Below, piece by piece: positions 2,459-64,000 of a DNA stretch of 64,000 bases. The translations under genes were made by a program, and so were the position numbers. The stretch spans positions 740,565 to 804,564 of the forward strand of contig NZ_BSFK01000016.1 in NCBI RefSeq assembly GCF_027922305.1, read 5' to 3'. The notes beneath the pieces are model-generated. The model did no database searches. It was not told the DNA's origin and saw only the letters and a program-made list of their open reading frames with translations. The first letter of the stretch is position 1. Every line of letters begins with the position of its first letter. Source of the stretch: Methylopila jiangsuensis (GTDB lineage Bacteria > Pseudomonadota > Alphaproteobacteria > Rhizobiales > Methylopilaceae).

Positions 2459-2667
2459 GCAACCTCGCCAACGTCAAGCGCCGGCAGGGCCACGCCATCG
2501 CCGCCGATCTCCGCGCCGCGATCGAAGGCCGCCCCGCCTCCATCCGCGCCGTCACCGCTGCTGACGACCTGTTGACGTGGATGCGAGCCGAGGTCGCGGC
2601 CGGCCGTACCGACTGGCTGGTCCGCCAGCCCGCCAAGACCTCCTCCGCCGTCAGGGAGCCAGACTGA
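2455..2667 (+). CDS. Small hypothetical phage protein
   Basis: A 70-residue frame starts with an ATG overlapping the previous stop (ATGA at 2455-2458) and ends by sharing bases with the next ATG (TGATG at 2665-2669). This double coupling is the main evidence that it is translated. The protein is Ala/Arg-rich and probably helical, with an Arg-rich first half and a Trp-containing second half. No domain is recognised. Its place between the DUF1376 gene and the NusG-like gene suggests early expression. Confidence 0.6.
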   Translation: MSNLANVKRRQGHAIAADLRAAIEGRPASIRAVTAADDLLTWMRAEVAAGRTDWLVRQPAKTSSAVREPD

Positions 2668-3326
2668 TGCACAGCGCCACCCGCCGCACCACCTATCGCG
2701 ACCGCAAGGCGGAGGAGCGCCGTGCCGCCATCGAGGCGGAGGCGGATCGCCGTCGGCTGGCGCGCGAGCTGTCCCTGTCCCGCGAGCGCCCCGGCATGGG
2801 CTGGTACGCGCTGTTCACCAACCCGATGCGGGAGCGCTCGGTGGAGGTGAGGGCGATCGAGGCGGGATTCTGCGCCTACGTGCCAGAAGGGTCGATCTGG
2901 ACCAAGCCGCAGCGCTCTACGGACTATGTGCGACGCGAGCGATGCGCGCTGCCGCGCTACGTGTTCGTCGCGGAGCCCAACGGCCGCCCGGTGGATTGGT
3001 TCTTCCTCCGCCGCATCGACGGCGTGCATGGCGCGCTCGGGAACGAGGGGCGGCCCCTCATGCTACGGCCCGGCGCGATCTCTCTGCTTCGCGCCATGGA
3101 GGCGGCTGGCGAATTCAACTTCAACAAGGATCCGAGCGCGCCGCCTCCGCCAGTGGCGACCTATGTCCGCGGCGACAAGATCACGATCAAGTCCGGCCCG
3201 CTTGCCGGCTTCACTGGCCCGGCCGTGGCGGCGTCTGATCGCCATGGTGTGGATATCGAGGTTCTTCTGTTCGGCCGGGCCACGATTACGCGCGTGCCGC
3301 TGGACTTCATCGCAGAAGCGGCCTAG
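2667..3326 (+). CDS. NusG/RfaH-family transcription antitermination-like protein
   Basis: The 219-residue protein has the layout of a NusG paralogue. A basic N-terminal extension (1-42) precedes an NGN-like domain (about 44-145; WYALFTNPMRERSVE, then LPRYVFVA and RRIDGVHG). A KOW-type beta-barrel follows at about 167-215 (GDKITIKSGPLAGFTG, then VLLFGR). Members of this family ride on RNA polymerase and suppress pausing or termination. In a phage, just ahead of the packaging genes, a role in switching on the late operon is likely, but that is inference. The ATG shares its A with the previous stop. The gene is followed directly by an intrinsic terminator (3428-3458) that such a protein could be needed to pass. 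Confidence 0.8.
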   Translation: MHSATRRTTYRDRKAEERRAAIEAEADRRRLARELSLSRERPGMGWYALFTNPMRERSVEVRAIEAGFCAYVPEGSIWTKPQRSTDYVRRERCALPRYVFVAEPNGRPVDWFFLRRIDGVHGALGNEGRPLMLRPGAISLLRAMEAAGEFNFNKDPSAPPPPVATYVRGDKITIKSGPLAGFTGPAVAASDRHGVDIEVLLFGRATITRVPLDFIAEAA

Positions 3327-13467: not shown

Positions 13468-13902
13468 ATGAAGCTGTCCGCCCTGCGGATCGACAACGCG
13501 CGTCTGGAAGAAGGCGCATGGGTCGGCGACATCCCTGAGCTTGAGGGCGTGCGTCTCCACGTCCGCGGCCTCGGCAACACCGACTTTCGCCGGCTCCAGA
13601 ACAAGCTCGTCATGGCCGTGCCGCGCAAGAACCGTCGCAACGGCCTGAGCCTCGAGGATCAGGCCCGGATCGAAGCCCGCTGCCTCGCGGAGACGGTCCT
13701 TCTCGGCTGGGAGGGGCTGGAGAACGAGGACGGGTCGCCGCTGGACTACAGCCCTGTCGAGGCTCTGCGGCTGCTGTCCAACCCCGATTTCGTGCGCCTG
13801 CGCGAGGGCGTGAACTACGCCGCGGCGATCGTCGCGGAGGACGACGCCGAAGCCGACGAGGATCTGGAGGGAAACTCCGAGCCTGCCTCCGCTGGCACCT
13901 GA
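13468..13902 (+). CDS. Tail assembly chaperone, short form (G-like)
   Basis: The 144-residue protein is the zero-frame product of the two-part tail chaperone. It lies between tube and tape measure, as in lambda G. The C-terminal part becomes acidic (DDAEADEDLEG), where the slippery heptamer GGGAAAC is embedded. It would bind the tape measure during tail assembly and leave before completion. Ribosomes that do not slip stop at the TGA at 13900-13902. Confidence 0.8.
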   Translation: MKLSALRIDNARLEEGAWVGDIPELEGVRLHVRGLGNTDFRRLQNKLVMAVPRKNRRNGLSLEDQARIEARCLAETVLLGWEGLENEDGSPLDYSPVEALRLLSNPDFVRLREGVNYAAAIVAEDDAEADEDLEGNSEPASAGT

Positions 13903-14276
13903 GATGGAGCGGAGAGCGGGCGGCGATCGAGCGGCTAGAGAAAAAAGGCCGTGAGGTCCCGGCCGACTATCTCAACCGGCCCGAGCTTGAGCCGGAAGGA
14001 GCGTTCTATTTCGACGCGTTCTTCCGGCTCAGCCCGTCCCGGCGGGTCGGCTTCAGCGAGGGGCCGATCCCATTCGAGGCGATAGACGCTTTCGCCCGGC
14101 GCTGGCGCATCTGGGGCTCCGAATTCGACCGCTTCGAGCGTATGATCCGGGCGCTGGACAGCGAACACCTGACAAAGCGGTCGGCGGGCAAGGACGACCC
14201 GCAGAACCTCACGTCCATGAAGGACGCCGCGGGCCTGCGGGCGCTGTTGCAGAGCGTGGGGTCGAAGGGCGGATGA
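13468..14276 (+). CDS. Tail assembly chaperone, frameshifted long form (GT-like)
   Basis: Translation joins 13468-13875 to the -1 frame from 13875 to the TGA at 14274-14276, giving about 269 residues. The downstream frame encodes WSGERAAIERLEKKGREV, then FYFDAFFRLSPSRR and the end LLQSVGSKGG. It has no ATG, GTG or TTG suitably placed near its beginning, so it needs the upstream start. Zero-frame codons GAG GGA AAC re-pair as GGG AAA, the canonical X XXY YYZ pattern. In lambda the equivalent GT protein links the tape measure to tail tube subunits. Confidence 0.82.
13869..13875 (+). promoter_or_regulatory. Slippery heptamer GGGAAAC for -1 ribosomal frameshift
   Basis: GGGAAAC is placed in the reading frame as G GGA AAC, 27 bases before the zero-frame stop. 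The -1 frame then stays open for 133 codons after the site. Lambda uses the closely related GGGAAAG at the same gene junction. Confidence 0.85.
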
Positions 14277-14960
14277 TCACCGCCGCCCTCGGCTCCGGTA
14301 ATAGCTTCGGACATAGGTTCCGTTCTTGCGGTAGTAGCCGCTGACATACTGTGTCTTGGCGCGTCCGGTGATGCAGCTCGTGGCGCCGTAGTAGTTGCCG
14401 GAATAGCAGCCGCCGCCACCGTAGCTTGACGGAGGCGTGTAGGCCGCGTTGGACGGCGCGACGGGTGTTGGGACGGAGGCGAGCCCCGCGTCAGCATGGG
14501 GGCTGTCGAGAGATTTCCAGGTCGCGATCGACGCGGCGTCCGGAATGGGCTCCGGGGCGGGGTCTGCAATTGCCGCGACGACTGGCACCGGCGGCGCGAT
14601 GACTGACGCCGCGAGGCTGCCGAACGCGACGTTGCCGACCGAGCCATCCGTCATGGTGACGGTGCCGGAGCCGGACAGGAGATCAGGCGACCGGGTGAGC
14701 CTGATGACGCCGACCCGGCCGTCCGAGCATGTGACTGGTGCGCTGAGTTCGATGGAGCTGGAGAACTGGTCGTAGTTGCCGAAGCAGCGGAGCCTGGATG
14801 CAGGGTCGACGACCTCGAACGTGCCGGCGGACAGGGCTGCGGTCGCGGTGCCGGTCAGCAGCCGACCATCGGTCATGCGGACGGCCGCAGGCGTGGTGTG
14901 CGAGCAGGCGGCGAGCGCCGCGCATGCGAGAGCGAGTAGCGCGGTTCTGATCGCCGCCAT
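14277..14960 (-). CDS. Predicted lipoprotein encoded antisense in the tail region (moron)
   Basis: The 227-residue protein has a classic lipoprotein signal: a hydrophobic stretch LLALACAALAA followed by Cys19. The body contains repeated TDG-type motifs (MTDGRLLTGTATAA and MTDGSVGNVAFG) suggesting a small duplicated beta domain, and the end is rich in Tyr, Gly and Arg. It is transcribed against the tail genes, and its stop abuts that of the tail chaperone. It likely sits in the periplasm or outer membrane of the lysogen. A role in superinfection exclusion is possible but is not shown by sequence. Confidence 0.72.
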   Translation of the reverse strand: MAAIRTALLALACAALAACSHTTPAAVRMTDGRLLTGTATAALSAGTFEVVDPASRLRCFGNYDQFSSSIELSAPVTCSDGRVGVIRLTRSPDLLSGSGTVTMTDGSVGNVAFGSLAASVIAPPVPVVAAIADPAPEPIPDAASIATWKSLDSPHADAGLASVPTPVAPSNAAYTPPSSYGGGGCYSGNYYGATSCITGRAKTQYVSGYYRKNGTYVRSYYRSRGRR

Positions 14961-15077
14961 TGGTATCCCCCGAGCAATTTGGGCGAAACCGTGGCGCGCT
15001 AAAGCGCCGAAGGTCGAGTCAGTAGAACGACGTAGGGCTCAGTCGGAGGTGGGGCGGGGATGTGTCTACCAACCGCG

Positions 15078-15099
15078 CTCCAAAGTCGGTGCTTTGGAG
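15078..15099 (-). terminator. 8-bp perfect hairpin right after the RHH gene stop
   Basis: CTCCAAAG (15078-15085) and CTTTGGAG (15092-15099) form a perfect stem with a 6-base loop, starting at the base next to the stop codon at 15100-15102. There is no T-tract, so it may stabilise or partly terminate the leftward transcript. Confidence 0.45.
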
Positions 15100-15549
15100 T
15101 CAGCGCCGCCCGCGAGACGAAGGCGGTTTGTCGCTTCCGTCGGGATCGATGGCGTGGGTTTTTTCCATGCTTTCCATCAGCGCCGAGCGAAGTTCGCTAA
15201 GTTGTTCTTTAGAGACTTGACCGCCCTGCTTGTCGAGGGCGACGGCCATGGCGCGCAAAATTCTCAATTCCCCACCAAGGATAGATCTCATTTCGCGGCT
15301 CCAACGTTTTGTCTCCGCAAGATCGATTTCCATACGATCTAGCTTGGAAGTAAATTCTGGATCGTTGAATGCGAAACTATCTTCTAGCCGAGCAACTATC
15401 TCAGCGTTCAGTGAGCGCTTGTTCTCAGCGGCGAGGGACTTGAGCCGGTCCCGCATCCCGTGTGGGAAGCGGACAATATATTGGTCCAGCTTGCGGCTGG
15501 GGGTGTCCTGCGCCACGGCGGCATGCTCCCTTTCGGTGGATAGTCGCAT
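15100..15549 (-). CDS. Arc/Mnt-like ribbon-helix-helix regulator with coiled-coil tail
   Basis: This 149-residue protein has an Arc-type DNA-binding domain at about residues 20-60 (DQYIVRFPHGMRDRLK, then SLNAEIVARLE). A charged helical region at about 65-130 looks like a coiled coil, as in the tetramerising tail of P22 Mnt. It is divergent from a second Arc-like gene across an operator at 15550-15615. By analogy with P22 it would repress the antirepressor operon in the lysogen. The ATG at 15549 is 75 bases from the other start. Confidence 0.8.
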   Translation of the reverse strand: MRLSTEREHAAVAQDTPSRKLDQYIVRFPHGMRDRLKSLAAENKRSLNAEIVARLEDSFAFNDPEFTSKLDRMEIDLAETKRWSREMRSILGGELRILRAMAVALDKQGGQVSKEQLSELRSALMESMEKTHAIDPDGSDKPPSSRGRR

Positions 15550-15615
15550 TAGGCGATAAACAGTGATTGACGCAATTATCTCACTAGGCGATATTTATAT
15601 CGCAATAGGAGATAT
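15550..15615. promoter_or_regulatory. Operator region between the two divergent RHH genes
   Basis: The interval contains TAGGCGATA at 15550-15558 and again at 15585-15593, 35 bp apart, and a related ATAGGAGATA at 15606-15615. A palindrome GCGATAT-TT-ATATCGC spans 15588-15603. Arc-family repressors bind such short repeated palindromes, so this is the probable shared operator and promoter region. It is far more AT-rich than its surroundings. Confidence 0.7.
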
Positions 15616-15624
15616 GGAGGTGTC

Positions 15625-15873
15625 ATGGACGTTGTCGGTAGGGGGGCGGATCAGTTCGCCCTTCGCTTCCCCGATGGAATGCGAAACCGGATCAAGGTCC
15701 GGGCGGCGGTGAACCGCCGCTCGATGAACGCAGAGATTATTCTGATGATCGAAACCGTGCTCGGGCAGAGCACGCAGACGACGGCGGGGAACAGCTTGCA
15801 GGCCACGGACCCCGCCGTCGCCGTCAACCCCAGCGCCTTGCAGGGCGCTGACGTCACCACCTACGGCAATTGA
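15625..15873 (+). CDS. Arc-like ribbon-helix-helix regulator
   Basis: The 82-residue protein carries an Arc-like domain (residues 9-48; QFALRFPDGMRNRIK, then RSMNAEIILMIE) very similar to that of the divergent 15100 gene. The remaining 35 residues are Ala/Thr-rich and probably flexible. It is preceded by GGAGG and followed 10 bases later by the antirepressor gene, the same order as arc-ant in P22. It likely dampens expression of its own operon. Confidence 0.8.
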   Translation: MDVVGRGADQFALRFPDGMRNRIKVRAAVNRRSMNAEIILMIETVLGQSTQTTAGNSLQATDPAVAVNPSALQGADVTTYGN

Positions 15874-15883
15874 GGTGCCACAG

Positions 15884-16672
15884 ATGACGACCAACGATAT
15901 GCTTCCGAACGAGGCGGAGCGCAATCCGATCGTGCGGATCGAAAACGGCGAGGTGCTTGCGGACAGCCGGGATGTGGCTGCGTTCTTCGGGAAGCGCCAT
16001 GACCATGTGATGGAAGCGATTGCCAACCTGATCGAGTCCGGCAAACCCGAAAATCCGGGTTTGGCAAACATGTTCATCGAGCGAACGTCGCCGCGCGACG
16101 GCGGCGGGCGGCCGCTGCGGAACTACTCGATGAACCGCGACGGGTTCACGCTGGTCGCGATGGGTTTCACTGGCGCGAAGCCGCTCAAGTTTAAGTTGGC
16201 ATACATTGCGGCTTTTAACGCGATGGAGCGCGAACTGATGGCGCGCCGCGGCGGAGACCCCATCCAGGTTCTGAACGACCCGGCGGCGATGCGGGGATTG
16301 CTGCTGACGTACAGCGAGAAGGTCATCGCGCTCGAAGGCGCTCTTACCGACGCCAAGCCGAAACTTGACGCGCTCGACCGCATCTCGGAGTCGTTCGGGT
16401 CGGTCTGCCCCACGGTCGCGGCGAAATCACTTAACAAGCCGCCGCGCTGGCTCACCCGCTGGCTGCGGTCCAACGGGTGGCTGTACAGACGCCCGGGTGG
16501 GCGGGACACCGCTTATCAAACGAAGATCGAGGCCGGTTACCTCGAAAATAAGCCGAGTACCGTGGACGGGCCTGATGGCCCGAAGACGTACTACCAGCCT
16601 CTGATCACGCCGAAGGGGGTGGCAAAGCTGGCGCAAATTTTCAACGCCGATGAGCGGGGGGCAGCGGCGTGA
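15884..16672 (+). CDS. Phage antirepressor (Rha domain plus KilAC/ANT-type C-terminus)
   Basis: The 262-residue protein has an N-terminal Rha-type domain (about 22-120; SRDVAAFFGKRHDHVMEAI, then NYSMNRDGFTLVAMGFTG and FKLAYIAAFNAMERE). The C-terminal half resembles phage antirepressor KilAC domains (RWLRSNGWLYRR, then the segment LITPKGVAKLAQIF). Such proteins inactivate prophage repressors or alter host regulation on induction. The start is at the ATG at 15884 behind GAGGTG. It is cotranscribed with the Arc-like gene just upstream. Confidence 0.85.
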   Translation: MTTNDMLPNEAERNPIVRIENGEVLADSRDVAAFFGKRHDHVMEAIANLIESGKPENPGLANMFIERTSPRDGGGRPLRNYSMNRDGFTLVAMGFTGAKPLKFKLAYIAAFNAMERELMARRGGDPIQVLNDPAAMRGLLLTYSEKVIALEGALTDAKPKLDALDRISESFGSVCPTVAAKSLNKPPRWLTRWLRSNGWLYRRPGGRDTAYQTKIEAGYLENKPSTVDGPDGPKTYYQPLITPKGVAKLAQIFNADERGAAA

Positions 16673-16971
16673 GCGGGAATATCATCCATTTTCAGAATTG
16701 CGCCTCGGAAGTCGACCGCCGTCTCGAAGCTCTGGACGCACAAGGCATCGAAATCTGGGTCAAGTTCTCAAGCTTCGGCAACGACATTCTGTTCGAGCTT
16801 CAACCCGAAGCGCTCACCGTGAAGGCAATGGATCTGGTCGCAGACACGGTGCGGCGCTTCAAGGGCGACCCCGAATTCCGAGAGCATATTGAATCGTATG
16901 CGATTTCGGTCGGAGTAGCCGTCCACGGCGTCGAACAAGAAGCGTGGAAGTTCACTCCGGTCGCTTCCTGA
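16669..16971 (+). CDS. Hypothetical protein after the antirepressor
   Basis: A 100-residue protein begins with a GTG overlapping the antirepressor stop (GTGA at 16669). It has a mixed alpha/beta pattern (IEIWVKFSSFGNDILFEL, then AMDLVADTVRRF) and ends in a beta strand with Trp. No family is recognised. The coupling indicates that it belongs to the antirepressor operon. Confidence 0.6.
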   Translation: MSGNIIHFQNCASEVDRRLEALDAQGIEIWVKFSSFGNDILFELQPEALTVKAMDLVADTVRRFKGDPEFREHIESYAISVGVAVHGVEQEAWKFTPVAS

Positions 16972-17046
16972 AATAGCCGGGGCGCGAAAGGCGGGCAGGC
17001 CAATCGCGCCCCATCACCGAAACGCCGCTGATAGGAGCACCGGCGA

Positions 17047-17604
17047 ATGGCTAACCACGACTCTACCACGGAAGAACACGACGCGCCGCAACCTTCGCGC
17101 CGCGGCTTCTTCGGGCACATTGCTGGCGCCGCGTTCGCCGGCGGGGTGGTGTATCTGACGAGCGGCGCGCCGGAGACGGTTTCGGAGGTGTTCCGCGCTT
17201 TCGCCGCGCGCCTCGCGGAGGCTGAAGCTCGGCACGAGGTGGCGGTCCGGGCGTCGGTCGCGGCGGAGACCGCTTACTACGCCAGCCGCCCCGTCAGGAT
17301 CGAGGTGGGCAACAACGAGAGCCTGCCCTTCGACGAGATGGTGAGGGACCGGCACAGGCGGCAGAGAGAGGCGAACGTTTCGCATTTTCAGCGGGACAGG
17401 GCCGCGCGGGCGCGATGCGACCTTGATGGCTGCCACCGGCGACAGGCCGAGATCATTACCGAGATCGACGGCATCCTTGGCGACCTCGTGAAGACGCCGG
17501 CGCGGACTGTCGACGATTTAAGGCTGAAAGCGCAGCTTGTTTTGGACAGGGACCAGGAACTGGCGGCCGAGGTTCTGGAGGAGTTCCTGACGCTGGTGGC
17601 GTGA
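17047..17604 (+). CDS. Hypothetical protein with twin-arginine-like N-terminus
   Basis: The 185-residue product has a Tat-like start: SRRGFF followed by a hydrophobic segment HIAGAAFAGGVVYLTSG (residues 17-40). No clear cleavage site is seen, so it may be a membrane anchor. The rest is charged and helical (residues 50-185), probably coiled coil, facing the periplasm if exported. Function is unknown. It is the last rightward gene of the island before the leftward HigBA pair. Confidence 0.6.
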   Translation: MANHDSTTEEHDAPQPSRRGFFGHIAGAAFAGGVVYLTSGAPETVSEVFRAFAARLAEAEARHEVAVRASVAAETAYYASRPVRIEVGNNESLPFDEMVRDRHRRQREANVSHFQRDRAARARCDLDGCHRRQAEIITEIDGILGDLVKTPARTVDDLRLKAQLVLDRDQELAAEVLEEFLTLVA

Positions 17605-17626
17605 GGATGAATGAGCTACCTCGTCG

Positions 17627-18004
17627 TCACGCCGCCCGTAGATCGTAAGGTCTGGCGACGAGGTCGGACGGGAGGCCCCAATCGGCGCGCAGGCGATAAA
17701 CCATGTTGAGCGTGAGCGCGCGCTTCCGGTTGAGCACCTCGGAGGCGCGGGACTTAGATCCGAACAGTTCGGCGAGATCGGCCTGGGTCTTGCCGGCGCT
17801 CTCCATGAACGCCTTCAGGGCTTCGATCGGGTCAAGATCGGGCAGGGGGAAGCGCTCCGCCTCATAGGAGGCGATCAGGGTGGAGAGCACGTCGAACCGA
17901 TCGCCTTCCGGCGAGCCAATCGCGGGCGGCTCGTCGAAATAGCGCTCGACCTCGGCGAGAGCCCAGTCGTAATCGGCTTCGGTGCGGATCGGGCGAATGT
18001 CCAT
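17627..18004 (-). CDS. higA: HigA-type antitoxin (XRE family)
   Basis: This 125-residue protein has the features of HigA antitoxins. An acidic N-terminal part (YDWALAEVERYFDE) is followed by an XRE helix-turn-helix at about 75-110 (GKTQADLAELFG, then SRASEVLNRKRALT). It would neutralise the HigB toxin and bind its own operator. Its ATG shares a base with the toxin stop (TGATG), giving the toxin-first order typical of hig loci. Confidence 0.85.
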   Translation of the reverse strand: MDIRPIRTEADYDWALAEVERYFDEPPAIGSPEGDRFDVLSTLIASYEAERFPLPDLDPIEALKAFMESAGKTQADLAELFGSKSRASEVLNRKRALTLNMVYRLRADWGLPSDLVARPYDLRAA

Positions 18005-18297
18005 CACACGGTCTCCGGGTTGATCTTGTCGTACTCTTTGTGCGTACCAACGAATTTGATCATCACGCGCTTGAACGGGTAGGAGACGCGGACGATCAGG
18101 CGGTACTTGTTGCCGCCGATGTTGAAGATCACGCGGTCGTCGGCCACGAAGTCGGCCGATCCGAACATGTCCTTCACGTCCTGCGGGCCGCTCCAGTCCG
18201 CCTTCTCGACGCGCTTGAACCACACCGCCAGCGGCGTTTCGGCGTCGGGATGGACGTCCCAGAAAGCCTTCAGCGTGCGGCGCGCGATGATCTGCAT
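18004..18297 (-). CDS. higB: HigB-type toxin (RelE superfamily mRNA interferase)
   Basis: The 97-residue protein matches the HigB subfamily that begins MQIIARRTLKAFW. It has the core FNIGGNKYRLIVRVSY (59-74) and the ending KFVGTHKEYDKI (81-92), where the basic and His residues serve ribosome-dependent mRNA cleavage in this family. I start it at the ATG giving the usual length. Expression would stabilise the prophage or guard against other phages. Confidence 0.87.
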   Translation of the reverse strand: MQIIARRTLKAFWDVHPDAETPLAVWFKRVEKADWSGPQDVKDMFGSADFVADDRVIFNIGGNKYRLIVRVSYPFKRVMIKFVGTHKEYDKINPETV

Positions 18298-18313
18298 GAG
18301 GGGAACATAGCAG

Positions 18314-18356
18314 GTTCCCGCTTTGGGAACAAGGGCTAAGTTCTCACTTCGGGAAC
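18314..18356. promoter_or_regulatory. Duplicated operator upstream of higBA
   Basis: A perfect inverted repeat GTTCCC-N5-GGGAAC at 18314-18330 is followed 26 bp away by an imperfect copy GTTCTC-N5-GGGAAC at 18340-18356. A lone GGGAAC half-site at 18301-18306 lies just before the higB start. This is the expected layout for autoregulation by HigA or the HigBA complex. Confidence 0.7.
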
Positions 18357-18381
18357 CCGCCTGACTTGGCCCCCACAAGCA

Positions 18382-18407
18382 AAAGGCCCCGAGGGATCGG
18401 GGCCTTT
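18382..18407 (-). terminator. Perfect terminator for the leftward membrane-protein gene
   Basis: AAAGGCCCCGA (18382-18392) pairs with TCGGGGCCTTT (18397-18407) across a GGGA loop. On the minus strand the stem runs into TTTT, so it can end transcription from the gene at 18521-18817; the T-rich other side makes it partly bidirectional. It shields higBA from that transcript. Confidence 0.8.
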
Positions 18408-18520
18408 CCTAAGGTCCGGTTGAATGGTTCAGAGACTGCGGTGCTGCGCAACTCGCGGGGCGATGTGCAAGCGGCAGGCAGACAAAAATGCGGTGATGTA
18501 GATACCGAGAAGTGTATTTA

Positions 18521-18817
18521 TCAGCGTAGATATCCAAGTATATTGCAGTTATTAATAATCTGCCTTAGATATTCATTGCTTCGAAGCTCAGTATGGCGAA
18601 GCGAATAATCTGCCTGACTGCACCAGCTCCTGACTTTGTCATCCTCGCCGGGTTTGGCTTTAGAGATTTCAAATAATTCCTGGCGATCTTCCTCAGCTCG
18701 CATCGCGCGTTCAATTTTCGCTTGATGGGCTGAATACTGTGTCCAGCCGAACCAGCCTACATAGGCCAGCACGGCCACGCACGTCACGGCGATCAACGCC
18801 TTAAGCCACCCGTCCAA
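18521..18817 (-). CDS. Small single-pass membrane protein (moron)
   Basis: The 98-residue protein has one transmembrane helix near its start (ALIAVTCVAVLAYVGWFGW), then a charged coiled-coil-like region and a Cys-containing tail. I use a TTG start because GGGGAGG lies 7 bases upstream; an ATG at 18844 would add nine residues but overlap the tape-measure start. The 3' third is AT-rich for this window, suggesting transfer. It has its own terminator at 18382-18407. No family is recognised. Confidence 0.6.
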   Translation of the reverse strand: MDGWLKALIAVTCVAVLAYVGWFGWTQYSAHQAKIERAMRAEEDRQELFEISKAKPGEDDKVRSWCSQADYSLRHTELRSNEYLRQIINNCNILGYLR

Positions 18818-18831
18818 CTGGAAGCCTCCCC

Positions 18832-21800
18832 ATGGCGATGACACTCTCGGCCATCCGCGAGCTGACCGTGCGCGGCCGCTCGGTCGGCCTCGACAAGCTC
18901 CGGGCGGACCTCGACGCTGTCAAGGACGCGCACACGGGCGTCACGCGCGCGGTGTCCGAGGCGGGCGACGCGTCTGACGTGAATTCGCGCAAGCAGGACG
19001 CGGCGGCGCGCGCGTGGGAAAAGCATCAGGCTCGTGTCGACCGGGCGGCCGCCGCCTACGCCCGGTTCCAGCGGGATTTTGACCGCATGGTGCGCACGAT
19101 GGACAACGGCGCCATCAGCGCCGACGCGGCGGCGCGCGAGATCGAGCGCATGCAGCGGGCGCTTGAGGCGGCCGGCACGATGGGGCTGCCGTCCATCGAC
19201 CAGTCGGCGTTCAACCGCTCGCTTGGCATCATGGAAGAGGAGGTGAAGGGCGCGGCGCGGGAAAGCGCTCAGGCGTTCGAGCGGGAGCTTCGACGGATCG
19301 AGGCCGCGGCCATGGGCCTGCGCGAGCACCTGGACCCGGTGGCGGCCGCCACGGCGAAGTTCACCCAGGAGGTGACGGACCTTCAGCGCATGTCGGCCTA
19401 TGGCCTGGTGACCCAGCGAGAGTTCTCCGCGGCGGTGGCTGAGGCGGAGACCCGGTTCAATTCGGCCTCGGCGGCTGCCCAAAAGCTGGTCGCCGCGGAA
19501 CGCGCGGCCGCCGACGCGGCGGCGATCGCCAACGCGCAGCGATCCCAGGACACGATCAACGGGCGTCTCGGCGTGCGCACCGATTTCGGCACGGCGCAGA
19601 GGGGCGAGGACATCAAGGCGTATGGCGCGGAGATGGACGGGCTTCGGGCACGGTTCTCCCCGCTGTTCGCCGCGCAGGAGCGCTACCGGAACGAGCTGGA
19701 GGAGATCAACCGAGCGCACAAGGTCGGCGCCATCAACGATGTGGAGCGCGCTGCGGCGCTGTCCCGGGCCAAGAGCGCGTTTAGCGAGCAGATCGGCGTC
19801 CTCAACGGCACGGCGGCGGCGGCGCGGCAGGCGGAGGACGCGCTGGCGGCGACGACCCGTGAAGCAGAGCGCGCGGCAGCGGCACAGACCGTGCATCGCG
19901 CCGGCGGTTGGGACCGGCTGGGGCAGCTTGGCGGCGACAATCTGGCGAACATCGAGGCGTCCCGTAAGCTCGCCGGCATGGGCGCCAGCGGCCGGGAGGC
20001 GGCCGGCGGCCTGAAGCTCGCCGCGCACGAGCTGCAGCAGGTGTCCTACAACGCCAACGACTTCTTCATGGGCCTGATGACCGGGCAGCCGGTCTACACG
20101 ACGTTCCTGCAGCAGGGCCTCCAGACGGTTCAGATCTTCGGGCCGAATGTGGGCGTGGGCGCGGCGCTCAGGTCGCTCGGGACCGGGCTGCTGACGTTCC
20201 TCATCAGTCCTTTGAACCTCGCCATTCTCGGCTTCGCCGGCGCGGCGGCCGCCGGCGCATACTTCTTCAATTCGGTGACGAGCGGCGCGGACAAATCGCA
20301 GCGGGCTTTGGACAGCCATCGGGAGACCGTCGCGCGCATTCGCGAGCTTTATGGAGACGCCGCAAAGGCGGTGCGCGAGTACGCGGCCGAGAGCGAGAAA
20401 ATCGTGCGTTTCAACGCGGTCCAGAACGCGAGGCTTCTGCAGGAGAGCTATCAGAAGGCCGCCCGAGCGGACATGTCTGAGCTCGGCACGACCGAGTACC
20501 GCCGCAACGCGGGCGGCGCCGATTTCAACTTCGTCGTCGCGAACCGCTACAAAGCGTTCGAGGGGCCGATCCAGGACCTCGTCTCAAGCATCCGTTCCGG
20601 GCAGCCTGAAGTGGAGCGGTTTCGTGAAAGTCTGAACGACATCTCGTCGTCCAACCCGATGAACAAGCGGCTGCAGGACATCGCGGTCGAACTACGTGAC
20701 ATCACCAAGCGCTCGTATGACGCGCAGCGCGCGGTTATGGGGGCGAAGGGGGCTCTCGACCTGTTCGGGACCTCCGCCGCCGACGCTCTCGCCAAGCTCC
20801 GCGCCGACCGCTTCAGCCTGTCTCTCCGCGAGATCAACGCCCGGACGGCGGCTGAGCGCGGACAGGTGGCCTACGACCGTCGTTGGGATCAGGTGCGGGA
20901 CGATCCGCAGTTCAGCAACGATGCGGCGCGCCGGCTGGAGGCCGATCGCGCCCGGGCGCTGGAGATGGCGCGGATCAACCGGGACACGATCGACGCGGAG
21001 CGCCGCTCGCGGTCCGCGCACGGCTTCGACCTGCGCGAGATCGAGGCGCGGACGGTGGCGCAGCGGGCGGCCATCGCCGCCGACCGCGCGCGCGCCGACG
21101 CGCTGGAGGACGTCAGCCGCCGCGTGAACGCCGACGCCGAGGCCGCGCGGGCCTCCGCAGCCGTCTACGCGCAGGCGCGCCGCGAGGCGCAGGACTACGC
21201 CGACCAGCAGGTGGAGGCGACCCGGCAGCGCGTGGACGCGGCGGTGATCGAGCGCCAGTCGGTGGGCAAGACGGCGATCGAGACCGAACGCCTGCGGATG
21301 ACGAGCGACCTCATGAACGAGGCGCGTCAGCGGGCCTACCAGCTCACCGGCGACTACAGCCGCGTCTCGGACGCCGCGGTGGCGGCGATCCTGCGGGAGG
21401 TGGACGCGACGACGAAGCTGAACGAGGCGACCCGCAAGGCGGCCCTTGAGCGCGATCTGTTGCATGAGCGGGAGGCGGTGTTCCTGTCGGACCGGGAGGC
21501 GGCGATCCGCGACCGCATCCGCTCCGCCGGATTCGATCCTGAGAGCGAGTATGGCCGAACCACGGCCGCGATCATGCGTGCGACCGACGCGCTCCGCGAG
21601 ATGAAGGAGATGGGCCGGGACGCGTGGAGCACGCTGGGCGATGGGCTCGCCAGCGGCGACGGCGTGGGCAAGTCGTTCGCAGACGCCGGCCGGAAGCTGC
21701 TGGAGGACGCGCGCAAGAAGGCCTGGGACAACATGTACGATCAGGCGTGGGGCATGCTCGGCGAGAGCATCCCGGGCTTGAAGGAGCTGGGGATTGGCGG

Positions 21801-23082
21801 CGCGAAACCGGACGGATCGGCGCAGCGGCCTTATCATGTGGTGCTTGGCGGAGCCGTGCCGGGCCTGCCTACGCTCTCCGACGTGACGCGCTCGCCGCTG
21901 GCGCCGCTCGGGGTGAACGACAACGGCGCCAACGCGGCGGCGCAGGCCTTGGACGCCGGCGGCTGGCTCAAATACTCGAACGGAGGCGCGACCCGAAGCC
22001 AGCCGCTCGACCCGTCGCTGGTGAACGCCTTCTCGTTCCTGAAGGACAAGGGCATCTCCATGGAGGTGTTCTCGGGCGGGCAGCCGGGCATCGGATCGGT
22101 CGGCGCGCGGGTGGGCTCGACGCGGCACGACCACGGCAATGCGGCCGACGTGTTCTTCTCGCAGAACGGTCGCCGGCTCGACTGGTCGAACCCGGCCGAC
22201 GTGCCGATCTATCAGGACATTGTGCGGCAGGCCCGCGCCAACGGCGTCACCGGCTTCGGCGCGGGGCCGGGCTATATGGCGCCGGGCTCCATGCACGTCG
22301 GCTTCGGGACGCCGGGCGTCTGGGGCGCCGGCGGACAGGGCGCCAACGCGCCGGACTGGCTGCGCACCGCGTTCAACAGCCCGGCCGCAACAGCCTCGAT
22401 CGCGCCGCAGACCACGGAGGCGGCGTCCGCGCTGACCAACCTGACGCAGAACGCGCAGGCGGCCACCTCCGGCCTCGGGGGGCTCGGACAGCAGGCGACC
22501 GGCCTTGGCGGTTTGTTCCAGTCGCTGTTCAGCGGCGGCGGGGCCAACGCCGCAGCCGGGGCCGCAGGGGCCGCGGGCGGCGGCGACTGGTTCGGGTCGG
22601 CGCTGGGGCTCGGACTGAAGCTGTTCGGTTTCGCGGAGGGCGGCCACGTCACCGGCCCCGGCACGGACACCAGCGACAGCGTGGTGGCGCGGCTCTCCGC
22701 CGGCGAATTCGTGGTCAACGCGGCGGCGACGCGCTCGAACCGCGGCCTGCTGGAGGCGATCAACGCCGGCCGCTTCGCCGGGGCCTATGCAATGGGCGGG
22801 TACGTTGCGAACGACGACTACGGCTACGGGAACGACAACTGGGACAGTTGGGCCTCGGTGCGCGCGCCAGCCGCGGAGCCGGCGCCGTCCGCCGACGCCC
22901 GGATCGCCGGGGCGCTGGTGAAGCTGGAGCTGGACAGCAAGTTCATCAAGGCGACGGTGGAGAAGCAGTCCCGGCCGGTGGCGCGGCAGGAAGCGGCCTC
23001 CGCCGCCGGGCAGGCCGTGGAGGTGTCGCGCCGCGGGGCGTCGGCGCAGGCCGCGCGTGAGCGCCGGCTCGGGTGGTCGTGA
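18832..23082 (+). CDS. Tape measure protein with embedded peptidase-like domain
   Basis: At 1,416 residues this is the largest gene, as expected for the protein that sets tail length. It has long helical stretches (1-370 and 590-960) and a hydrophobic segment near 452-485. At about 1066-1160 lies a compact domain with TRHDHGNAADVFF (from about 1096) and PGSMHVGFG (from about 1152), resembling the His-Asp-His zinc site of M15-type peptidoglycan peptidases. Near residue 1265 a conserved tape-measure motif EGGHVTGPGTDTSDSVVARL appears, followed by SAGEFVVNAAAT. The peptidase would help cross the cell wall during DNA entry. Confidence 0.85.
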   Translation: MAMTLSAIRELTVRGRSVGLDKLRADLDAVKDAHTGVTRAVSEAGDASDVNSRKQDAAARAWEKHQARVDRAAAAYARFQRDFDRMVRTMDNGAISADAAAREIERMQRALEAAGTMGLPSIDQSAFNRSLGIMEEEVKGAARESAQAFERELRRIEAAAMGLREHLDPVAAATAKFTQEVTDLQRMSAYGLVTQREFSAAVAEAETRFNSASAAAQKLVAAERAAADAAAIANAQRSQDTINGRLGVRTDFGTAQRGEDIKAYGAEMDGLRARFSPLFAAQERYRNELEEINRAHKVGAINDVERAAALSRAKSAFSEQIGVLNGTAAAARQAEDALAATTREAERAAAAQTVHRAGGWDRLGQLGGDNLANIEASRKLAGMGASGREAAGGLKLAAHELQQVSYNANDFFMGLMTGQPVYTTFLQQGLQTVQIFGPNVGVGAALRSLGTGLLTFLISPLNLAILGFAGAAAAGAYFFNSVTSGADKSQRALDSHRETVARIRELYGDAAKAVREYAAESEKIVRFNAVQNARLLQESYQKAARADMSELGTTEYRRNAGGADFNFVVANRYKAFEGPIQDLVSSIRSGQPEVERFRESLNDISSSNPMNKRLQDIAVELRDITKRSYDAQRAVMGAKGALDLFGTSAADALAKLRADRFSLSLREINARTAAERGQVAYDRRWDQVRDDPQFSNDAARRLEADRARALEMARINRDTIDAERRSRSAHGFDLREIEARTVAQRAAIAADRARADALEDVSRRVNADAEAARASAAVYAQARREAQDYADQQVEATRQRVDAAVIERQSVGKTAIETERLRMTSDLMNEARQRAYQLTGDYSRVSDAAVAAILREVDATTKLNEATRKAALERDLLHEREAVFLSDREAAIRDRIRSAGFDPESEYGRTTAAIMRATDALREMKEMGRDAWSTLGDGLASGDGVGKSFADAGRKLLEDARKKAWDNMYDQAWGMLGESIPGLKELGIGGAKPDGSAQRPYHVVLGGAVPGLPTLSDVTRSPLAPLGVNDNGANAAAQALDAGGWLKYSNGGATRSQPLDPSLVNAFSFLKDKGISMEVFSGGQPGIGSVGARVGSTRHDHGNAADVFFSQNGRRLDWSNPADVPIYQDIVRQARANGVTGFGAGPGYMAPGSMHVGFGTPGVWGAGGQGANAPDWLRTAFNSPAATASIAPQTTEAASALTNLTQNAQAATSGLGGLGQQATGLGGLFQSLFSGGGANAAAGAAGAAGGGDWFGSALGLGLKLFGFAEGGHVTGPGTDTSDSVVARLSAGEFVVNAAATRSNRGLLEAINAGRFAGAYAMGGYVANDDYGYGNDNWDSWASVRAPAAEPAPSADARIAGALVKLELDSKFIKATVEKQSRPVARQEAASAAGQAVEVSRRGASAQAARERRLGWS

Positions 23083-62582: not shown

Positions 62583-64000
62583 TCAGGCTAAGCGAAACGC
62601 CTCGCGCTGACTTCGCCAGTCGAGCGGAAACCGCGTGTCGGCCATCAGCTTGCTGGCGGTCAGATCGGGATATCGCCCGTCGAGCAGTCCCGCCACGATA
62701 TCCGGAGCGAGGAAGCTGATGCGGACCAGACGGGTCATGTAGGACGCGGTGAGGTTCTCCTCCCGTGCGACGTCGTCGATGCTCGCCCGGTCGTCGATCA
62801 GGCGGCTCCGGACGATCTGGGCGCGCGCCACGAGGCGGATCAGGCTGGCGTCGGCGGGCGCCTCTTCGGCCAGGCCGTCGATCACGAAGCGAAGTTCGTT
62901 CCCGCGCCGCTTCAATCGCGCCGGGACAGAGATGGTGGTCAAGTCTTCGTCCAGGCGATTCGGGATGGGGTGGGTGGCGGCCGAGCCTTCCGGGTCGGCC
63001 AGCCAAGCCTGCAGCCCGGTCAGCCCGATCGTCAGGTCGACCCTGTCCTGATGCACGTCGATGCGCGGAACGAAGGCCAGCAGCGCGGTGCGGACGTCGG
63101 GCGTTCCCAGCGCCGGCCAGCGCGCCGCGGCTTCTTGGCCAAGTTGGGTCAGCCGACGCTGGTCGCTGGCGCCGCGATCCGTTGACGAGCTCGCGTCCAT
63201 GGTCGAGGCTGGGTCGGCGAGCATCCGCCCTACGCGGTCCCGCACCAGTTGCTCCAACGCCGGCGCCGGGAGGCGCAGGCCTTGGGTGTCCGTCCTCTTC
63301 CCGCTGACGAGGTGATGGGACACGTAGTACCGATAGCGCATGCCCTTCTTGACCGCGTGGCTGGGCGTCAGCCGTTTGCCCGCGGCGTCATAGACGAGGC
63401 CAGCGAGCAGGCTCGGTTCGGCGGCCGCGGTTCCGGTCGTCCGCTCGACCCGATTGTCGGCGAGGACTTTCTGCGCCTCTGCGAACAGCACCTCGTCCAC
63501 GATCGCCGCGTGCTCGCCAGGATAGACCTCGGCCTTATGCACGATGTCGCCGCGGTAAATCCGGTTGGAGAGCATCAGATAGAGCGCGCCCCGTGAGAAC
63601 GCCTTGCCGCCATAAGGCGAACCGTCGGCCGCCGTCCTGCACTTGCTGATCACGCCGGAGGCGTCGAGCTCCGCCTTCAGCTCCCGAACCGACCCTAGCT
63701 CTACGTAGCGGCGGAAGATGTTTCGGACGGTCGCGGCTTCCGCCTCGTTGACCACGAGCTTGCGGTCGCGGACGTCGTAGCCGAGCGGCGGCTGGCCGCC
63801 CATCCACATACCTTTCTTCTTCGAGGCCGCGATCTTGTCGCGGATGCGCTCGCCCGTGACCTCGCGCTCGAACTGCGCGAAAGACAGCAGCACGTTCAAC
63901 GTCAACCGTCCCATGCTGGTCGTGGTGTTGAACGCCTGGGTCACCGAGACGAAAGAGACGCGATGCTTATCGAACAGCTCGACGATGCGTGCGAAGTCGC
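62583..64000 (-). CDS. Large serine recombinase (C-terminal part, continues past the window)
   Basis: The leftward frame enters the window at 64000 and ends at 62583 (473 codons seen). The visible part has the end of the resolvase domain (SMGRLTLNVLLSFAQFEREV), the recombinase domain (GGQPPLGYDVRDRKLVVNEA, then SNRIYRGDIVHKAEVYPGEH), a zinc-ribbon region with few Cys, and a long helical tail. The catalytic Ser is outside. It would integrate or excise a mobile element; the tRNA-Ser at 62220 is a likely neighbour of its attachment site. Confidence 0.88.
   Translation of the reverse strand, partial: DFARIVELFDKHRVSFVSVTQAFNTTTSMGRLTLNVLLSFAQFEREVTGERIRDKIAASKKKGMWMGGQPPLGYDVRDRKLVVNEAEAATVRNIFRRYVELGSVRELKAELDASGVISKCRTAADGSPYGGKAFSRGALYLMLSNRIYRGDIVHKAEVYPGEHAAIVDEVLFAEAQKVLADNRVERTTGTAAAEPSLLAGLVYDAAGKRLTPSHAVKKGMRYRYYVSHHLVSGKRTDTQGLRLPAPALEQLVRDRVGRMLADPASTMDASSSTDRGASDQRRLTQLGQEAAARWPALGTPDVRTALLAFVPRIDVHQDRVDLTIGLTGLQAWLADPEGSAATHPIPNRLDEDLTTISVPARLKRRGNELRFVIDGLAEEAPADASLIRLVARAQIVRSRLIDDRASIDDVAREENLTASYMTRLVRISFLAPDIVAGLLDGRYPDLTASKLMADTRFPLDWRSQREAFRLA

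Follow-up and report, generated by a model that had tools for sequence, protein, structure and literature searches.

Does a pair of divergent Arc-family RHH genes followed by an antirepressor gene, lying among the tail genes of an alphaproteobacterial prophage, reproduce immI, the secondary immunity region of Salmonella phage P22, and if so in function, in descent or in both? The window (the whole stretch of DNA analysed, 64 kb) belongs to a 3.7-Mb genome; the right part of a lambda-like prophage takes up the first ~42 kb of the window. The IMG/VR record matching this prophage is 62,014 bp long and runs, by coordinates, from about -19.6 kb to 42.4 kb of the window. Integrase, left operon, an S24 CI-like repressor and right operon lie 5' of the window. 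Within it, the late genes follow in the order terminase (5146), portal (6776), capsid (8985), tail tube (12936), chaperone (13468), tape measure (18832) and tail tip (24854). The genes relevant to the question are as follows.

Window -8418 to -7723 (L078:14147-14842): S24 CI-like repressor (PF00717, 1e-6), at the divide between left and right operons
13468..14276, plus strand: tail assembly chaperone G with its -1 frameshift extension GT (phrog_313, 1.6e-11); left border of the island
14277-14960, minus strand: putative lipoprotein with lipobox LAAC, read from sequence, no Pfam match; left end of the island
15100-15549, minus strand: RHH1, Arc-family repressor in the Mnt position (Pfam Arc PF03869, E 2.8e-14)
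15625-15873, plus strand: RHH2, short Arc-family repressor in the Arc position (Pfam Arc PF03869, E 2.2e-12)
15875-16672, plus strand: putative antirepressor, Rha N-domain plus KilAC (Rha PF09669, 1.3e-24; KilAC/ANT PF03374, 7.7e-24)
16669-16971, plus strand: 100-aa protein overlapping the antirepressor stop, no family match
17047-17604, plus strand: 185-aa protein with an N-terminal RR motif and hydrophobic stretch, no Pfam match
17627-18004, minus strand: HigA-like antitoxin (HTH; HTH_3, 9e-5; phrog_1373, 1e-20)
18004-18297, minus strand: HigB-like toxin (PF09907, 6e-32)
18521-18844, minus strand: one-TM protein adjoining the tape-measure gene (hydropathy 2.0), no confident family
18832..23082, plus strand: tape measure protein, assigned as a long ORF (1416 aa) and by synteny; right border of the island

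A slippery heptamer, GGGAAAC, lies in register at 13869-13875, and the -1 chaperone product ends at 14276. As the tape measure starts at 18832, the island comprises exactly 14277-18831 (4.55 kb), and its placement between these two genes, as proposed in a sequence-only reading of this DNA, is borne out. The same reading listed HigBA, a lipoprotein and membrane proteins after the antirepressor; all of these genes are present, but the lipoprotein gene stands at the left end rather than after HigBA. The G+C content of the island is 61.5%, against 66.4% for the late genes to its left and 70.9% for the tape-measure gene, and falls to 40% in the RHH intergenic region. Scans of viral contigs with the tape measure and with RHH1 matched no prophage other than the present one. 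Among prophages of the same genus, the tape measure ORF has homologs in ORFs of tape-measure size.

These same-genus prophages include several with closely similar tail tubes (MTP; 89% identical in L104, 86% in L105 and L106, 85% in L108), all of which lack the island. Their chaperones are 64-67% identical to the present one, and only ~0.4-0.6 kb separates chaperone T from the tape measure. Most of these slots hold a reverse-strand ORF that differs from phage to phage, although such ORFs are tentative, having mostly been missed by the gene caller. They are YbjQ-like in L103 and L108 (L103: PF01906, 1.6e-22), and membrane or secreted proteins in L104, L105, L107 and L110. The slot is empty in L109 and in several order-level relatives (L146, L147, L151, L153, L156). 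Since the relatives' slots lack the island and contain varying ORFs or nothing, the boundary between chaperone and tape measure is a hot spot for insertion in this phage group, commonly occupied by morons on the reverse strand. The present island is a pile-up of morons in that slot: the lipoprotein, an immI-like cassette, HigBA and a membrane protein. ES18 gp18-20 occupy the same slot, but are annotated neither as RHH nor as antirepressor proteins; HK97 gp15 lies there as well.

Both RHH proteins score well above the PF03869 gathering cut-off (53.1 and 47.1 bits for RHH1 and RHH2, respectively, vs 20.4). RHH2 is directly followed by the co-oriented antirepressor gene with a gap of ~10 bp, order and overlap being read from the sequence. 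The start of the antirepressor is probably ATG 15884, the Shine-Dalgarno of which overlaps the RHH2 stop, so the two genes are probably translationally coupled. The antirepressor gene also matches phrog_63 "anti-repressor Ant" (4e-53) and TIGR02681; like other Rha-KilAC proteins, its product is called an antirepressor by homology. All frames of the cassette are intact. The RHH intergenic region, 15550-15624, and the start of RHH1 hold three copies of one 17-bp palindrome (half-site 6, spacer 5, half-site 6), arranged around a putative promoter.

15542-15558: putative operator O1, AGTCGCATTAGGCGATA, two mismatches to consensus, overlapping the RHH1 start codon
15567..15595, plus strand: putative promoter TTGACG-17-GATATT for RHH2-antirepressor, 9/12 match
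15577-15593: putative operator O2, TATCTCACTAGGCGATA, exact consensus, in the promoter spacer and -10
15598-15614: putative operator O3, TATCGCAATAGGAGATA, exact consensus, covering the expected transcription start

The best palindrome pair (two copies with like arms) outscored 300 of 300 dinucleotide shuffles. Together with the Pfam matches, this confirms the proposal of two Arc-like RHH genes diverging over a palindromic operator, with an antirepressor behind the second. A promoter scan of 5.2 kb returned a single promoter-like site, the rightward one listed above, where 1.0 is expected by chance; the 9/12 match is thus statistically unremarkable alone, but it is positioned like P22 Pant. 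In the same manner as O2, a palindrome lies inside a TTGAC promoter at loci L010, L014 and L026, among others. The repeated-palindrome test is strongly significant at L014, L026, L046, L048 and L010, but not in P22, SPN3UB, KlebPhi8.1 or L011. Repeated identical operators are therefore no general rule: many relatives, P22 among them, fall short of significance.

The core of the island (15100-16672) is likely a secondary-immunity cassette operating in the manner of P22 immI, and one of several morons in the hot spot, a reading given a probability of about 0.7. Binding, an order of repression and a target for the antirepressor may be proposed as follows. In the lysogen, the leftward RHH1 would bind the palindromes in and around the rightward promoter, keeping it off, and no antirepressor would be made. 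Upon failure of repression, or entry of a new genome, the rightward promoter would yield RHH2 and then the Rha-KilAC antirepressor, which would disable the CI-like S24 repressor of the present prophage or of a resident one. RHH2 would afterwards shut the rightward promoter again. An S24 repressor apart from the cassette, together with an integrase and a right operon, is present in the prophage and supports this immI-like function.

Alternatively, the Rha-KilAC protein might be a regulator of transcription or replication, or an anti-host protein, kept silent by the RHH pair, which would make the unit a locked moron with no induction switch. Rha and KilAC are indeed domains of DNA-binding type that are shuffled among many phage regulators. 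Moreover, the antirepressors found behind RHH pairs are not homologous (P22_AR_N+P22_AR_C, Bro-N+P22_AR_C, Rha+KilAC, KilA-N+KilAC and AntA+KilAC), which suggests that their shared function may exceed CI inactivation. However, this alternative is unlikely given that the matches of the present protein to the PHROG "anti-repressor Ant" families (phrog_63/130) are full-length, and that RHH repressors are its constant companions, as in P22, the product of which is a proven antirepressor.

It is considerably less likely that the cassette is a degenerate passenger, transcribed only within the late message, in the sense direction, and no longer under lysogeny control. RHH2, the antirepressor and the genes at 16669-17604 do run in the same direction as the late genes, and terminators in the scanned 5.2 kb do not exceed chance (five terminator-like sites vs 4.1 expected). 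Intact frames throughout, well-conserved operators and the retained RHH2-antirepressor coupling all argue against such decay. With promoter and terminator counts no higher than chance, the suggested insulation of the island from the late genes by leftward promoters and terminators is unsupported; the sole promoter-like site is rightward. A strong hairpin at 18382-18407 (-21 kcal/mol), which lacks a long U tract, may be relevant to insulation.

The exact operator consensus occurs twice in the 64 kb, both times in the RHH intergenic region, and no further exact copies were found in the 22.5 kb of upstream prophage or elsewhere in the window. A wider RHH regulon was accordingly rejected, and the RHH proteins should act on their own promoters only. 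For RHH1 to be the main lysogeny repressor, with the S24 protein secondary, is scarcely credible: RHH1 could in principle act on other phage promoters, but these lack exact copies of its operator over the same range, and a canonical S24 repressor sits at the left/right operon divide.

The immI-like reading can be compared with P22 itself. The order and strands of mnt and arc-ant are reproduced, with divergent Arc-family genes and the antirepressor behind the rightward one. The annotated Oarc lies in the Pant spacer, as O2, judged from sequence, lies in the spacer and -10 of TTGACG-GATATT. Siting in a siphovirus tail region had been held up as a contrast to P22, but immI of P22, too, is embedded in the late operon, where genes 16 and 9 flank it (PMC8022706). 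Late-operon location is thus a likeness, and only the slot differs, being chaperone-tape measure here.

Other features differ. P22 Ant comprises P22_AR_N and P22_AR_C, in contrast to Rha and KilAC in the present protein. P22 Mnt carries the C-terminal tetramerization domain PF11423 (1.6e-20), to which RHH1 has no match, having instead long C-terminal helices of its own (predicted at 64-107 and 114-133, pLDDT 80-90); in the model, these could serve oligomerization, like the unrelated Mnt tail. The arc-ant gap in P22 is 68 bp and houses the sar antisense RNA, for which the ~10 bp here leave no room, and a search of Rfam gave no match to a structured or sar-like RNA. P22 uses two different operators, Omnt and Oarc, as opposed to three copies of a single palindrome type, so the division of labour between Mnt and Arc may not exist here. 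Orthology of RHH1 with Mnt and of RHH2 with Arc was rejected: in an RHH tree of only 39 columns (9 changes vs 14.5 in shuffles), the two positions are mixed and P22 Mnt pairs with P22 Arc. The Mnt and Arc names therefore denote position only. The claim that the locus copies Mnt, Arc and Ant thus holds for gene order and operator/promoter geometry, which support functional likeness well, but not for kinship, since the operator pair, antirepressor domains, Mnt C-terminal domain and sar gap of P22 were each sought and not found. By function the cassette is most likely immI-like; by descent it is not immI.

The RHH(-)/RHH(+)/antirepressor unit recurs in many phages, including loci found via the antirepressor. 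In Novosphingobium (L010) and Paracandidimonas (L015), the divergent pair and antirepressor are followed by a tape-measure protein. In Chromobacterium (L024), RHH(+) and the antirepressor precede it, as does an antirepressor with no detected RHH at L022 and L042. The module lies 3' of the tape measure at L026 and L053, and between an internal virion protein and the tail fibre at L028, resembling the position in P22. The order chaperone, Arc/Arc, antirepressor, tape measure, for which a search of other prophages had been suggested, is present in SPN3UB, S107, ST11-VIM1phi8.1 and Pyei1. Paracoccus phage vB_PyeM_Pyei1 (p50-p58) is likewise alphaproteobacterial and has chaperone, Arc(-)/Arc(+), a Rha-KilAC antirepressor and tape measure in the same order, but has a contractile tail, no intervening HigBA and other extra genes. 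Salmonella SPN3UB and S107 and Klebsiella ST11-VIM1phi8.1 show major tail protein, next gene, Arc(-)/Arc(+)/antirepressor, further morons and tape measure; their antirepressor, however, is Bro-N plus P22_AR_C. In Edwardsiella phage GF-2, Arc(-)/Arc(+)/antirepressor is placed just past the tail lytic/tape protein, and in Paraburkholderia phage 437 it lies beside the lysis genes. The gene table for phage 437 lists Arc(-), Arc(+) and Ant, with the pair uncommented (PMC5567305).

As the same arrangement has already been deposited in several named phages, the present locus adds one more example to a known kind. Literature searches on this arrangement turned up no paper that treats it as a system. 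With this locus, immI-like control reaches a siphoprophage of an alphaproteobacterium, where it is combined with another kind of antirepressor and a simpler operator of a single type; the picture of lysogeny control stays as it was. For prophage annotation, this means that RHH and Rha genes labelled "hypothetical" in tail regions are in many cases probably switches. It is tempting to speculate, however doubtful the idea, that the divergent RHH pair and its promoter-embedded operator travel together as a control module, which was put independently before antirepressors of at least five architectures and, time and again, into one and the same slot of the tail operon. The antirepressor would then be supplied by its own switch as well as by late read-through, for instance inducing co-resident prophages late in the cycle. 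Elsewhere in the island, the HigBA genes share 67-73% DNA identity with plasmid HigBA.

The HigBA pair of the island between tail chaperone and tape measure (17627-18297, reverse strand) shows 67-73% DNA identity to plasmid HigBA of Agrobacterium, Aureimonas and Phyllobacterium, so it was probably acquired separately from the cassette of two RHH genes and a Rha-KilAC antirepressor. In the same-genus prophages compared (L103-L110), the slot between chaperone and tape measure holds reverse-strand ORFs that vary among phages and encode YbjQ-like, membrane or signal-peptide proteins. Superinfection exclusion is a candidate role for these ORFs.

Three further features lie in the window:
2667-3326, forward strand, 219-residue protein with a NusG domain (PF02357, 8.8e-8)
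13869-13875, slippery heptamer GGGAAAC, in register within the tail chaperone gene
62583-63944, reverse strand, large serine recombinase-like protein (PF07508, PF00239)

The -1 product of the tail chaperone, as computed from the reading frame, terminates at 14276, and is of the same kind as lambda G/GT. The NusG-domain gene belongs to the phage right operon, immediately 5' of the packaging genes, and its product is a candidate antiterminator of the late genes.

A second tail-tube homolog, 41% identical, is encoded on another contig of the same genome (G000:C10:44080-44517), possibly marking another prophage, itself a potential antirepressor target. The serine recombinase-like gene lies beyond the prophage, close to tRNA-His and tRNA-Ser.
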